Assembly: GCA_000173115.1 (NCBI GenBank)
Contig: ABVW01000001.1
Coordinates: 434,001-498,000, forward strand
DNA from: Flavobacteria bacterium MS024-3C
Lineage (GTDB): Bacteria; Bacteroidota; Bacteroidia; Flavobacteriales; Flavobacteriaceae
Direction: 5' to 3'
DNA: 64,000 nucleotides
The position numbers and the translations under genes were made by a program. This document shows positions 23,565 through 30,544 of the stretch, piece by piece. Each line of letters begins with the position of its first letter. Position 1 is the first letter of the stretch. The notes under the pieces are model-generated. The model searched no databases, had not been told where the DNA came from, and saw only the letters and a list, made by a program, of their open reading frames with translations.

Positions 23565-23741
23565 ATGAAAAAACCCCATCTAGCGATATTTTTATGGACA
23601 CTTCTTGGGCCTTTATTGGCCCAAGAAGCTACTGTGCCTAAAGAAGTTTTTGTGTCTCAAGAAGTTTCTTTGTCTCTCAAGAAGCTACTGTGCCTAAAGA
23701 AGTTTTTGTGTCTCAAGAAATTCTGGCCCTTGTTGCTGTAG
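23565..23741 (+). pseudogene. Signal-peptide fragment of the lytic transglycosylase, out of frame
   Basis: This 58-codon frame opens with an ATG 21 bases after pgk and encodes a convincing signal peptide (hydrophobic core ending GPLLAQEA). It reads on as QEATVPKEVFVSQE, then runs into a nonsense Leu/Lys/Cys repeat and stops. The same QEATVPKEVFVSQE sequence reappears in the other frame as the start of the large downstream protein. The 42-bp direct repeat between them, offset by 56 bases, breaks the frame. The gene is therefore either inactivated, switchable, or mis-sequenced at this point. Confidence 0.75.
23622..23719 (+). repeat. 42-bp direct repeat that breaks a reading frame
   Basis: Bases 23622-23663 and 23678-23719 are identical over 42 positions, with a 14-base spacer, so the copies start 56 bases apart. 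As 56 is not a multiple of three, the repeat puts the signal peptide and the mature enzyme in different frames. Loss of one copy plus spacer would join them exactly. The spacer itself resembles part of the repeat, so the locus looks slippage-prone. Confidence 0.9.
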
Positions 23742-25156
23742 ACACTATTGCAAAACCTTCCTTAGAGGCGTTAGCTTTTGCAGCGGTTTTAGACTCAATT
23801 TTAAGCGCGTCTCATGTGGTTGCAGCTCCTGATATAAGCTATTCCGCTCAAGACAGTATGGCTTTTTTTAACCCGTCCACAGACAGCTTAAAAAGCCGTT
23901 TGTCGCTTCTTGATCAGGGCACTATATTAGACAGTCGTTACAACCCTTCTTTAGAGGGCGTTATTAAGATGTATTTACGCTCTAAAAGGGTTCTAATTCA
24001 AAAAATGCTACATAGAAGTGCCTATTATTTTCCGCTTTTTGAAAGGGAATTAGACGCGCTTTCCATGCCTATGGAAATTAAATATTTAGCCATTGTGGAG
24101 TCTGCTTTAAACCCAAAAGCAAGGTCCAGGGTTGGCGCTACGGGGCTCTGGCAATTTATGTACGGCACTGGTAAAATGATGGGATTAGAGGTCAATAATT
24201 ATGTAGATGAGCGCCAAGACCCTTTGAAATCTACCCAAGCAGCCTTTAAGTATTTAAAGAAATTACACGGAATGTTTGGCGATTGGAACTTGGCTTTAGC
24301 GGCGTATAATTCTGGACCAGGAAACGTTAGGAAAGCCATTAGGCGTGCAGGCGGTGTGAAAGATTTTTGGGCCATTAGAAGTTTTTTGCCAAGGGAAACA
24401 GCAGGCTATGTTCCTGCTTTGCTCACCACAATGTACTTGTTTGAATACGCAGAAAATCATGGCTTTGAGTTGCCTAAAACGGCTGCAGCTTCTTACGCCA
24501 CAGACACCATTCACCTCAAAAAAGCCATCAGTTTTTCACAACTTTCTAAGGCTTTGTCTTTACCAGAGCAAACCATTGAACAATTGAATCCGGTCTATAA
24601 ATTAGGGATTATTCCTCAGATCGAAGGAAAGCCTCAGGCGTTGAGACTCCCAAGCACCTCTACCACACTTTTTATAGAACAACAAGACAGTATTTATGCT
24701 GCAGTAGCAGCAGAAATGGCTCTTTTAAAAAAACCTTTTCCTGCCCTTCAGACCGTAGGAGCACCACTTAGATACAGGGTGCAATCTGGAGATTATTTAG
24801 GCAAAATTGCCCAGCGATATGGACTTAGGGTGTCTGACATTAAAAAATGGAATAGATTGAGCGGAAACAACTTGTCTGTAGGGCAACGGTTGACGCTTTA
24901 TCCGAAAATTTTTCCTGTGAGTGGGACCCAAAACGCATCGGCCGTAGGCCAAAAAAGCACCCAAAAAAGTGTTTCAAAGACCCCTTCAATTGCTGCGGAT
25001 CAAAAGACCTATACCGTGGCTGCGGGAGACTCGCTTTGGCTTATTGCCCAAAAGCTAAAAGGAGTCAGTGTAGACGATCTTAAAAAATGGAACGATATTT
25101 GGAACAATGAACTAAAACCTGGAACGACCTTGAAATTGTGTTCTTGTTCCCCATAA
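23690..25156 (+). CDS. MltD-like lytic transglycosylase with two LysM domains
   Basis: Cleaves peptidoglycan glycan strands in the periplasm. The readable 488-residue frame begins at a GTG inside the repeat and lacks a signal peptide; joined to the upstream fragment it would be 511 residues with one. The SLT domain contains IVESALNPKARSRVGATGLWQF with catalytic Glu137 and the AYNSGPGNVRKAI block. Two LysM peptidoglycan-binding modules follow (YRVQSGDYLGKIAQRYGL and YTVAAGDSLWLIAQKLKG). Without export the enzyme would have no substrate, so the present form is probably inactive unless the frame is restored. Confidence 0.9.
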   Translation: MPKEVFVSQEILALVAVDTIAKPSLEALAFAAVLDSILSASHVVAAPDISYSAQDSMAFFNPSTDSLKSRLSLLDQGTILDSRYNPSLEGVIKMYLRSKRVLIQKMLHRSAYYFPLFERELDALSMPMEIKYLAIVESALNPKARSRVGATGLWQFMYGTGKMMGLEVNNYVDERQDPLKSTQAAFKYLKKLHGMFGDWNLALAAYNSGPGNVRKAIRRAGGVKDFWAIRSFLPRETAGYVPALLTTMYLFEYAENHGFELPKTAAASYATDTIHLKKAISFSQLSKALSLPEQTIEQLNPVYKLGIIPQIEGKPQALRLPSTSTTLFIEQQDSIYAAVAAEMALLKKPFPALQTVGAPLRYRVQSGDYLGKIAQRYGLRVSDIKKWNRLSGNNLSVGQRLTLYPKIFPVSGTQNASAVGQKSTQKSVSKTPSIAADQKTYTVAAGDSLWLIAQKLKGVSVDDLKKWNDIWNNELKPGTTLKLCSCSP

Positions 25157-25166
25157 AACAAACCGC

Positions 25167-26156
25167 ATGAAAAATTTAGCCCCATTCTTTGTCCTTCTTT
25201 TTATAGTATCTTCTTGCAAGGAAAAGTCCAATTACAAATACCTGCCTGAATCTATTGGTCAGGTGCAGTCTATTTTGGTGGTCATGGAGGAAGATTTGTG
25301 GGAGAGTGCCGTGGGAGATTCAGTTAGAAAGGCTTTCACGAGTCCTATCAAAGGACTGGCCGTGGCGGAGCCGGCCCACCATATTCAGTATATACCCCCG
25401 TCTGTTTTTAAGGGAACGGTAAAGCAAAACAGAACAGTTTTAGCGGTGGGTTTAGACAGTTTGTCTCTTGCGCACATTAAAAAGGATGTTTACGCTAGGC
25501 CACAATTAATAGGCGTGGTAAAAGGCTTAGACCAAGCAGATCTGATGCAGCAGTTTCAAGCGAAGAAAGGAGATTTCATAACCGCTTTTAAGGCATTGGA
25601 AATAGAGCAAACCCAACAGCGGTTTAAGCGCTCATTAAACCAGGAGAAAGGCATTGAGAACTTATTGGGTGTTGGGCTAGACATTCCTTCTGCCTATAGG
25701 CTGGGGATGCATACAGAAAGCTTTGCATGGATAGATAGAGCCATTCCTTCAGGGAGTAGTAATATTATTGCATATGCCCTACCCTACAACAGCTTTAACA
25801 GCCCAGACACTTTTATTGAGGATATTGTTGCTGCCAGAGATTCTGTGGTGAAAATTCATATTCCAGGGCCAGATGTACCTGGAAAAACAACCTATATGAA
25901 AACGGAAACAGTTTTTATGCCCTATGTGACTCCTGCGGAGATTGCCGGATATAAAGGCGTGGAAATCAGGGGGATTTGGGACATACAAAACTACCCTATG
26001 GCCGGTCCTTTTGTGGCTTATATTTTAAATGACCCAGACCAGGACAGAAAAATAGTTTTGGAGGGATTTGTGTTTGCGCCCAATAAAGAAAAGAGAACGC
26101 CGCTCTTTGAATTAGAGGCTATTATTAAAACCCTCCACCCTATCCTTAAGGAATAA
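25167..26156 (+). CDS. DUF4837 family lipoprotein
   Basis: A 329-residue predicted lipoprotein: the signal ends in lipobox VSSC (Cys17). The body, starting LPESIGQVQSILVVMEEDLW and containing AVGLDS, GLDIPSAYRLG and IRGIWDIQNYPMAGPFVAY, matches the Bacteroidetes family DUF4837, of unknown function. It follows the lytic transglycosylase by 10 bases, suggesting a cell-envelope context, and ends at a terminator. Confidence 0.85.
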   Translation: MKNLAPFFVLLFIVSSCKEKSNYKYLPESIGQVQSILVVMEEDLWESAVGDSVRKAFTSPIKGLAVAEPAHHIQYIPPSVFKGTVKQNRTVLAVGLDSLSLAHIKKDVYARPQLIGVVKGLDQADLMQQFQAKKGDFITAFKALEIEQTQQRFKRSLNQEKGIENLLGVGLDIPSAYRLGMHTESFAWIDRAIPSGSSNIIAYALPYNSFNSPDTFIEDIVAARDSVVKIHIPGPDVPGKTTYMKTETVFMPYVTPAEIAGYKGVEIRGIWDIQNYPMAGPFVAYILNDPDQDRKIVLEGFVFAPNKEKRTPLFELEAIIKTLHPILKE

Positions 26157-26163
26157 AAACAAA

Positions 26164-26189
26164 AAACCCTTCCAATTTGGAGGGGTTTT
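26164..26189. terminator. Bidirectional terminator between DUF4837 gene and tatA
   Basis: AAACCCTTCCA and TGGAGGGGTTT pair over 11 bp with one G-U pair and a 4-base loop. A and T runs flank it, so it can serve both convergent genes. Confidence 0.85.
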
Positions 26190-26215
26190 GATAGGACCAA
26201 AAGGCTGAAAGGCCC

Positions 26216-27378: not shown

Positions 27379-28878
27379 ATGGGCCTAAAACAATTTGCAG
27401 CAAAGATATTTGCTAAATACATCGTACAACAAACCGCACAATGGGCCAACAATCCTGTGGCCACCCAGGAGGCTGTATTTAAGTCTTTGATTAAAAGCGC
27501 TGCACAGACTCAATTTGGAAAAGACCACGATTTTGCCGAGATCAAAAGCCATGGGGATTTTATTAGAAAAGTGCCCATAAGGGACTATGAAGGTTTAAAG
27601 GATTATGTTCAAAAGGTGGTTGCTGGAGAAAAAGACGTGCTTTGGCCAGGGCAGCCTGCTTACTTTGCCAAGACCTCAGGAACTACTTCTGGCGCCAAAT
27701 ATATTCCCATTACCAAAGCCTCTATTCAAGAACAGGTGAAAGCATCTAGAGATGCTATTCTGCATTATGTACACCAGAGCGGCAACAGTGATTTTGTGAC
27801 CAGAAAGATGATTTTTTTACAAGGGAGTCCTATTTTAGATACCTCTGGACACATTCCAACAGGAAGGCTTTCTGGAATTTCAGCCCATTACGTTCCGGCC
27901 TATTTGCAGCGCAATAGACTGCCTAGTTGGGAGACCAATTGTATAGAAGATTGGGAAACTAAAGTAGCCGCCGTTGTTCAGGAAACCATTGCCGCAGATA
28001 TGGGTGTGATTGCTGGAATTCCTTCTTGGGTGCAAATGTATTTTGAACGTTTGAAAGCGGCTAGTGGAATACCCGTAGGAGAGCTGTTTAAAAATTTTAA
28101 TTTATTTATTTACGGCGGGGTTAATTACGAGCCGTACAGGGCCAATTTTGAAAACCTGATTGGAAGAAAAGTAGACACCATTGAGCTTTTTCCGGCGAGT
28201 GAAGGATTTTTTGCTTACCAAGACCTCAGAGAAGAGAAAGGCATGTTATTGCTATTAAATAGCGGTATTTTTTACGAGTTTATCCCTTCAGACCAATTTT
28301 TCGAAAAGGATCCGCCAAGATTGACTATTGGCGAAGTATCTATGGGGGTAAACTATGTATTAATCCTCTCTACCAATGCAGGCTTATGGGGGTATAATAT
28401 TGGAGATACCGTACAGTTTACTTCTTTAAAACCTTACAGGTTGATAGTTTCAGGGCGCATAAAACATTTTATTTCTGCTTTTGGAGAACACGTCATTGCC
28501 AAAGAGGTGGAGTACGCCATTCAGGAAGCTATAGAAAAGACAGACGCTAGGGTCTTGGAATTTACGGTAGCCCCTCAAATTGCGCCTAGTAGCGGATTGC
28601 CTTATCACGAGTGGCTGGTGGCTTTTGAAAAAGCCCCTTCAGATTTTGATATTTTTTCTAGTATCTTAGACCAGGCTTTGCAAGACCAAAACAGCTATTA
28701 TAAAGACCTTATTGTAGGAAAGGTGCTACAAAAATTAAAAATAACGTCTCTCCCCACAGACGCCTTTACCCAGTTTATGAAAACCAAAGGAAAACTAGGT
28801 GGTCAAAACAAAGTGCAGCGCTTGGCCAACGACCGAGATATTGCAGACGCCTTATTAAAAATTAAAGACCATGTCTAA
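27379..28878 (+). CDS. GH3-family acyl-adenylating enzyme
   Basis: A 499-residue soluble protein related to plant GH3 acyl-acid amido synthetases, members of the adenylate-forming superfamily that join carboxylic acids to amino acids. The ATP/AMP-binding motif TSGTTSGAKYIPI is clear (about 101-113), as are ELFPASEGFFAY and WGYNIGDTVQFTSLKPYRLIVSGRIKHF. Bacteroidetes members are usually labelled GH3 auxin-responsive promoter family, but their substrates are unknown; auxin need not be involved. It lies 3 bases after the M23 gene and overlaps the next gene by 8 bases. Confidence 0.88.
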   Translation: MGLKQFAAKIFAKYIVQQTAQWANNPVATQEAVFKSLIKSAAQTQFGKDHDFAEIKSHGDFIRKVPIRDYEGLKDYVQKVVAGEKDVLWPGQPAYFAKTSGTTSGAKYIPITKASIQEQVKASRDAILHYVHQSGNSDFVTRKMIFLQGSPILDTSGHIPTGRLSGISAHYVPAYLQRNRLPSWETNCIEDWETKVAAVVQETIAADMGVIAGIPSWVQMYFERLKAASGIPVGELFKNFNLFIYGGVNYEPYRANFENLIGRKVDTIELFPASEGFFAYQDLREEKGMLLLLNSGIFYEFIPSDQFFEKDPPRLTIGEVSMGVNYVLILSTNAGLWGYNIGDTVQFTSLKPYRLIVSGRIKHFISAFGEHVIAKEVEYAIQEAIEKTDARVLEFTVAPQIAPSSGLPYHEWLVAFEKAPSDFDIFSSILDQALQDQNSYYKDLIVGKVLQKLKITSLPTDAFTQFMKTKGKLGGQNKVQRLANDRDIADALLKIKDHV

Positions 28879-30544
28879 TAAAAACACTAGGGCCAGAGAG
28901 TCCACAAACGCTATTGAGCGTATTTATATTACCATGAGACACCTATTTAATAGAGGCTTTTACAAGCCTATGGGGGTTTCTGGGGAAACACTAAAAAATG
29001 CTTTGCTACAGCTCAGACCTGAAATTTATGGGAGTATAGCAGAAGAAAAAGCAGAGCTCAACGGGCTCATTTATGTATTGGAACGTTTGCCAGAAGGGAT
29101 TGAGGAGTGTCGTTTTATAAACCTTACCTCAGATGAAGGTTATGGGGCGGCTCATTTTAAAGCCATTGTGCCCCCAAAAAGGCGCAGGAATTGCTTTAGA
29201 ATAGACCACGAACAAATGAATGTAGAAATTACTAGAGGGCGTTCGGATATTTACGATATTCTCACCCACCTGACGTTCTTGTTTATAGAATCACACAAGA
29301 TTTTAAAGCGTGTTTACTTAGAAGACAGTCAAAAAACGACCAGAGATTGGACCAAGTTTTCAGAGGCTATTGCCAAAGGAAAACTCACTATAGCAGAACG
29401 CGAAACCGCCTTAATTCATATGTCTAATTTTCTGGGACGTTCTTTTCTAGAAGTCTCAGACATGCATAAAAAGTTAGCGACTAAAGTACAGCCAGAGCGT
29501 TTTTTAAAAGTGATCTACTGGCTGGGTAATTTGGCTATAGAAGAAGAAACCACAGGAGAAAAACGCACCATTACTTTTAGCCCATTACTCAGAGAGCGTC
29601 TGGGGCACCATATTCATGGAGAAAGATGGGCCAATGCCATTAAAGAGTCACTCATTAAACAAGACCTTATTGGCAGGCCTTTACATATTATCAGTGCAAA
29701 TATGCACTCGGTAATGAACGCTTTGTTTGCAAGGAAAGCCTTGGGCAAAGCCTTTGAAAAAAGCACTGATTTAGACATATACGAAGCCCTCAGTGCTCCT
29801 GAAAACGAGGCCCTTAGAGCAGAGGTAACCGAATTTGCAACAGCACACGGAATGACCGCTATTCCAGACCAATCTGGGACCAATATAGACATACAAATAT
29901 TTGATCTAGCCAAAGCATTAGGACAGAGTAATTTTGTGCCCAAATTTACAGACCCCGAAAAAGCACCTGTTATTTTTGTGATGGATTACGCCTTTGGAGA
30001 GCAGGCCTATGAGACCATGGACGAATTATTAAAGCCTTATAAAGCCAATAGAAAAACACCTTTGTTTTTAGATGTTCACTCTATTTCTATCATGGGGAAA
30101 GCAGGGATTTTAGAAGGCGGAAAAGGAGATTTAATGATTCCAAATGCCCATATTTTTGAGGGATCTGCAGACAATTATCCCTTTACCAACCAGCTTTGTG
30201 CGTCAGATTTTGAAGGCCATGACCTACTGGTGTTAGAAGGCGCTATGATTTCTGTTTTAGGGACCTCGCTTCAAAACAAAGACATCCTTACTTACTTCCA
30301 TGAATCTACTTGGAATGTGATTGGTTTAGAGATGGAAGGGGTGCATTATCAAAAAGCCATTCAATCTGCTTCTAAAGTACGCAGAAGTATTCGCGAAGAC
30401 GTAGAAGTGAACTACGCGTATTACGCCTCAGACAACCCACTGGAAACGGGTAGTACTTTAGCCTCTGGAGGGCTTGGTACTACAGGGGTAAAACCTACTT
30501 ACCTCATTACAGAAAAAATACTCACCCAAATCTTAAACAATTAG
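28871..30544 (+). CDS. Conserved Bacteroidetes protein, function unknown (DUF6909-like)
   Basis: A 557-residue soluble protein that I believe belongs to DUF6909, not otherwise characterised. The N-terminal 120 residues contain DEGYGAAHFKAIVPPKRRR. The C-terminal third contains VIFVMDYAFGEQAYETMDELL, GAGILEGGKGDL-like loops and GLEMEGVHYQKAIQ; the EMEG motif and preceding Gly-rich loop recall nucleoside phosphorylases, only a weak hint. There is no signal peptide or membrane segment. It overlaps the GH3 gene by 8 bases and ends 2 bases before rfbB, so translation is probably coupled. Confidence 0.7.
   Translation: MSNKNTRARESTNAIERIYITMRHLFNRGFYKPMGVSGETLKNALLQLRPEIYGSIAEEKAELNGLIYVLERLPEGIEECRFINLTSDEGYGAAHFKAIVPPKRRRNCFRIDHEQMNVEITRGRSDIYDILTHLTFLFIESHKILKRVYLEDSQKTTRDWTKFSEAIAKGKLTIAERETALIHMSNFLGRSFLEVSDMHKKLATKVQPERFLKVIYWLGNLAIEEETTGEKRTITFSPLLRERLGHHIHGERWANAIKESLIKQDLIGRPLHIISANMHSVMNALFARKALGKAFEKSTDLDIYEALSAPENEALRAEVTEFATAHGMTAIPDQSGTNIDIQIFDLAKALGQSNFVPKFTDPEKAPVIFVMDYAFGEQAYETMDELLKPYKANRKTPLFLDVHSISIMGKAGILEGGKGDLMIPNAHIFEGSADNYPFTNQLCASDFEGHDLLVLEGAMISVLGTSLQNKDILTYFHESTWNVIGLEMEGVHYQKAIQSASKVRRSIREDVEVNYAYYASDNPLETGSTLASGGLGTTGVKPTYLITEKILTQILNN

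Follow-up and report, generated by a model that had tools for sequence, protein, structure and literature searches.

The window analysed here is a 64-kb stretch of DNA, bases 434001–498000 of the 549-kb contig C21, which belongs to the draft genome (1.5 Mb, 64% complete) of a marine bacterium that is uncultured. The nearest named relatives of this genome are marine Flavobacteriaceae MAGs. On the plus strand, at 23690–25156 of the window, lies the body of a lytic transglycosylase gene resembling mltD, open and without decay. Its product has an SLT domain at 125–223 (Pfam, E = 1.5e-30) and two LysM stretches (E = 8.6e-29). That is, an SLT catalytic domain is followed by LysM repeats, the domain arrangement of the MltD type. 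The top NCBIfam match is murein transglycosylase D (E = 1.3e-65), with a score of 221.5 bits that falls below the curated equivalog cut-off of 508. The protein is MltD-like, not a certified MltD equivalog; for brevity, the gene is called mltD below. None of the viral contigs searched for mltD has the gene. Three close congeners, G009, G001, and G010, encode, besides MltD, a distantly related SLT protein about 321 aa long; no second SLT protein was found in the window's own, 64% complete genome.

The signal peptide and the mature enzyme lie in different frames. The signal-peptide ORF, at 23565–23741 on the plus strand, begins with an ATG at 23565, encodes 58 residues, and ends at a TAG stop at 23739–23741. 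Its translation reads MKKPHLAIFLWTLLGPLLAQ, then the first copy of a repeat, then out-of-frame residues, and it can be aligned to the signal peptides of the three congeners, which are in frame (MKKHFAAFFLWIFLGPLVAQE and similar). The mature frame stays open until 25156 and lacks an upstream ATG. As assembled, mltD has no export signal in its own frame. The initial annotation placed a 42-base direct repeat at this junction, and it gave the coordinates, frames, and residue counts correctly. The copies, at 23622–23663 and 23678–23719 (both on the plus strand), share exactly 42 identical bases at an offset of 56, and the bases flanking them differ. Copy 1 is in the signal-peptide frame, copy 2 is in the mature-enzyme frame, and each translates as QEATVPKEVFVSQE. 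Removing 56 bases does yield a protein of 511 residues. Across the assembly, the 42-mer is found at these two sites only, even when three mismatches are allowed; thus, the match is not a chance one.

The repeat is part of a regular hexapeptide array. Tandem Repeats Finder reports one array at 23622–23719, with a period of 18 and 5.3 copies. The units encode QEATVP, KEVFVS, QEVSLS (+CT), QEATVP, KEVFVS, and QEILAL, and their lengths are 18-18-20-18-18-18. Units 4 and 5 are identical to units 1 and 2, and the first 42-base copy comprises units 1 and 2 plus CAAGAA. Only unit 3 is off length. Located at 23658–23677 on the plus strand, it consists of the hexad CAAGAAGTTTCTTTGTCT (QEVSLS) and a CT excess, making 20 bases versus 18, and it is the frame breaker. 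The excess, at 23671–23679, where TCTCTC stands for TCTC, alone upsets the 18-base register. The repeat geometry is accordingly not that of the initial annotation. What had been described as a 14-base spacer is the remainder of the third hexad plus CT. The 56-base segment, taken earlier as the repeat unit, is not a natural unit, as the offset is 3 × 18 + 2 (54 + 2), and its deletion would also take out the middle hexad QEVSLS, which is conserved in relatives as QEASLS. A 56-base tandem duplication would match over at least 56 bases; since the match ends at 42, the copied block is the pair of units, 36 bases long and in frame.

Comparison with relatives places the window's linker as the exception. 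In G009, G001, and G010, the proteins of which are 92, 91, and 86% identical, respectively, mltD is unbroken and sits in the same place, downstream of pgk. Their linkers consist of three in-frame hexads, QEISIP(IS)-QEASLS-QELSAL or close variants, and neither a duplication nor an out-of-frame state of the linker is present in any of the three. The congeners' second hexad, QEASLS, shares 15 of 18 bases with unit 3 of the window; the third hexad of the congeners is closest to the window's last unit (12 of 18). These matches suggest that the ancestor already carried the QEVSLS/QEASLS unit. A further 102 distinct relatives were compared, and in 101 the signal peptide is in frame: 100 were scored by script from an ATG start, and one, L029, was read by eye as starting at a GTG with a lipoprotein-like signal. 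No comparable repeat array was found in these 102. The sole out-of-frame relative is Maribacter halichondriae Hal144, a nanopore-only genome, and its authors raise the indel errors of long-read-only assembly as a possible artefact (PMC10942906). In that genome (L074, 4600–4800), the signal peptide and the mature part of mltD lie in different frames, close to an A5 run.

The body of mltD appears to be under selection like that of an intact gene. dN/dS to the congeners is 0.09–0.11, within the range found for the same gene between congeners. A search for decay elsewhere in mltD, by way of further breaks or a raised dN/dS, found none. The body is under purifying selection, with no sign of long-standing loss. 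The region has a mosaic relationship to its congeners. From about 24000 to 26200, a segment that includes the mltD body and the next gene, the window is about 90–95% identical to G009, versus about 80–85% in the flanks, and dS to G009 is 0.33–0.34 in this tract, versus 0.8–0.86 for pgk and the gene at 27379. Judged from these values, the tract is a putative product of recombination between species. A second such tract, closest to G001, lies near 28800–30500. The repeat was considered as a recombination junction and rejected: the G009-like tract begins downstream of the array, some 280 bases away, so the tract leaves the frame break unexplained.

The frame break is to be weighed against the small-indel background of the contig. 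Over the 369 kb of C21 covered by matches to G009 ORFs, on this one contig of the genome, three genes are clearly split by 1–2 base indels, at 254186, 264760, and 273130. At C21:254186 (L211), a 2-base excess at a run of nine Ts splits leuS, and no further leuS was found in the 64% complete assembly beyond the split fragments. At C21:264760, a TonB-dependent-receptor-like gene is broken, with one base missing versus G009, and at C21:273130 (L159), an M16-peptidase-like gene is broken in the same way. Flagged places at 137490, 283100, and 323685 were not counted, as they apparently reflect genes with different ends, not clean indels. A split leuS is incompatible with a living cell unless slippage rescues it; transcriptional slippage at a nine-base run could in principle do so. 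It follows that at least the leuS indel is probably false, and false 1–2 base indels probably remain in the assembly. Within the 64-kb window, comparison with three relatives revealed no other clear frameshift. Among the relatives, no breaks were found in G001 (short-read, 73 kb) or G010 (64 kb), and several were found in G009.

In the first 400 kb of C21, no other frame-breaking array was seen in mid-gene. Two other duplications lie there. At C21:171959–172043 (L154), a perfect 29-base tandem triplicate lies in an intergenic position downstream of a likely tRNA gene, and short repeats related to it occur at several places in the congeners. At C21:299878–299938 (L160), a near-identical 30-base duplication runs across the 3′ end of a 453-residue ORF, including its stop codon. 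The remaining duplications in these 400 kb lie at or past gene ends.

We lean somewhat towards the following explanation. The gene would encode a conserved and ordinary exported enzyme of the MltD type, the linker of which has undergone a real, recent, in-frame duplication; the 2-base excess would come on top of this, with a consensus error favored over fresh slippage. The linker, directly after the signal-peptidase site, is a short array whose 18-base units encode hexapeptides of the QE type. Units 1 and 2 would have been copied recently to the site after unit 3, adding 36 bases and keeping the frame. The frame break would be a separate event, the CT excess in unit 3, for which residual consensus error seems more likely than a real recent slippage mutation in the sequenced cells. 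The duplication itself is probably genuine and recent. The anatomy of the array, the intact frames of the relatives, the absence of decay, and the further small indels on C21 are observed; we infer both the order of events and the assignment of CT to error rather than to mutation. Consistent with this explanation are the single off-length unit among units otherwise of 18 bases, with units 4 and 5 the same as 1 and 2; the in-frame hexads of the congeners; the in-frame signal peptides of all the other relatives save the nanopore-only one; the three further frame-breaking indels on C21, one of them in the only leuS found; and the low dN/dS of the mltD body, about 0.1, like that of the intact congeners. 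Some observations point the other way. Two of the three other indels are at or beside homopolymers, whereas the window's excess affects a dinucleotide within a tandem array, itself a true mutational hotspot. In addition, leuS may be rescued by slippage, or a second leuS may exist at 64% completeness, and the window itself holds no other clear frameshift.

The strongest alternative is a real and recent loss of function, by a 2-base slip in the array or by a one-event duplication of 36 + 2 bases, after which no exported MltD would be made. We regard this as quite possible, though short of an even chance. TC repeats and tandem arrays are prone to slippage, and the identical copies and intact mltD body fit a recent mutation. 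The second SLT protein of the congeners suggests that MltD may be dispensable, with other lytic transglycosylases covering for it, but no second SLT protein was found in the window's own 64% complete genome, and the other C21 indels, including the one in leuS, form a background of probable false frameshifts. The initial annotation had offered two readings, a phase switch or a recent loss. A fresh disruption does fit the identical copies, the intact and selected body, and the unbroken relatives; an ON/OFF switch is unsupported.

Such a switch would toggle export of the transglycosylase by loss or gain of a 56-base repeat unit or of a TC pair, and we consider it very unlikely. In its favor, 56 mod 3 is 2, such that deletion of one copy restores the frame, and 42 bases of identity at a 56-base spacing would permit RecA-independent deletion. 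The step would, however, probably be close to one-way: with one copy lost, only imperfect 18-base units remain (13–15 of 18 matching), and regain would require a duplication from these, presumably a rare event. What breaks the register is two extra bases in a run of three TC units, and such a run is short by the standard of known phase-variable tracts. Neither the array expansion nor the out-of-frame state occurs in any congener, a comparable array is in none of the 102 other relatives, and the one that is out of frame is nanopore-only. C21 has other small frame-breaking indels, of which the leuS one is hard to accept as real. Literature searches turned up no paper that, judged by its title or abstract, describes such a switch in Flavobacteria or in lytic transglycosylases. 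The specific proposal that a marine flavobacterium population toggles export of a peptidoglycan-cutting enzyme via base gain or loss in the 18-base hexapeptide array right after the signal peptide is, if anything, a shade less probable still. Were it true, cell-wall remodelling would here be subject to phase variation, an unusual case. Recoding, in which ribosomes would shift within the 97-base frame overlap at 23642–23738 and make the protein despite the break, is scarcely credible, for although the required shift is −1, visual inspection of the overlap turned up no in-phase X XXY YYZ slippery heptamer, the RNA fold is no better than that of shuffles (z −0.04), and the relatives need no shift.

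The frameshifted repeat in mltD is most likely an ordinary one, reflecting a sequencing error or an isolated mutation rather than a genetic switch. Its main lesson is cautionary. In a draft genome, a lone 2-base frameshift, however striking the repeat it lies in, needs to be judged in light of the frameshift background of its contig, which here includes a broken essential gene. With MltD, the window's protein shares the SLT-to-LysM domain order and the signal peptide, and in close congeners the gene is a single one located 3′ of pgk; it differs in scoring under the NCBIfam equivalog cut-off, in a signal peptide without a lipobox, and in being out of frame in the assembly. With contingency (phase-variable) loci that have intragenic repeats, it shares a frame-setting repeat array near the 5′ end. 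The unstable tract of a contingency locus would be expected in close relatives too; in contrast, the congeners here have three in-frame hexads and no duplication, the 18-base period is frame-neutral (a multiple of three), and a single CT sets the frame. With the residual indel errors of draft and long-read assemblies, as in Hal144 (PMC10942906), the locus shares an isolated 1–2 base indel in an otherwise intact conserved gene, as in leuS on the same contig; unlike those errors, the window's excess sits in a tandem array, not in a homopolymer.
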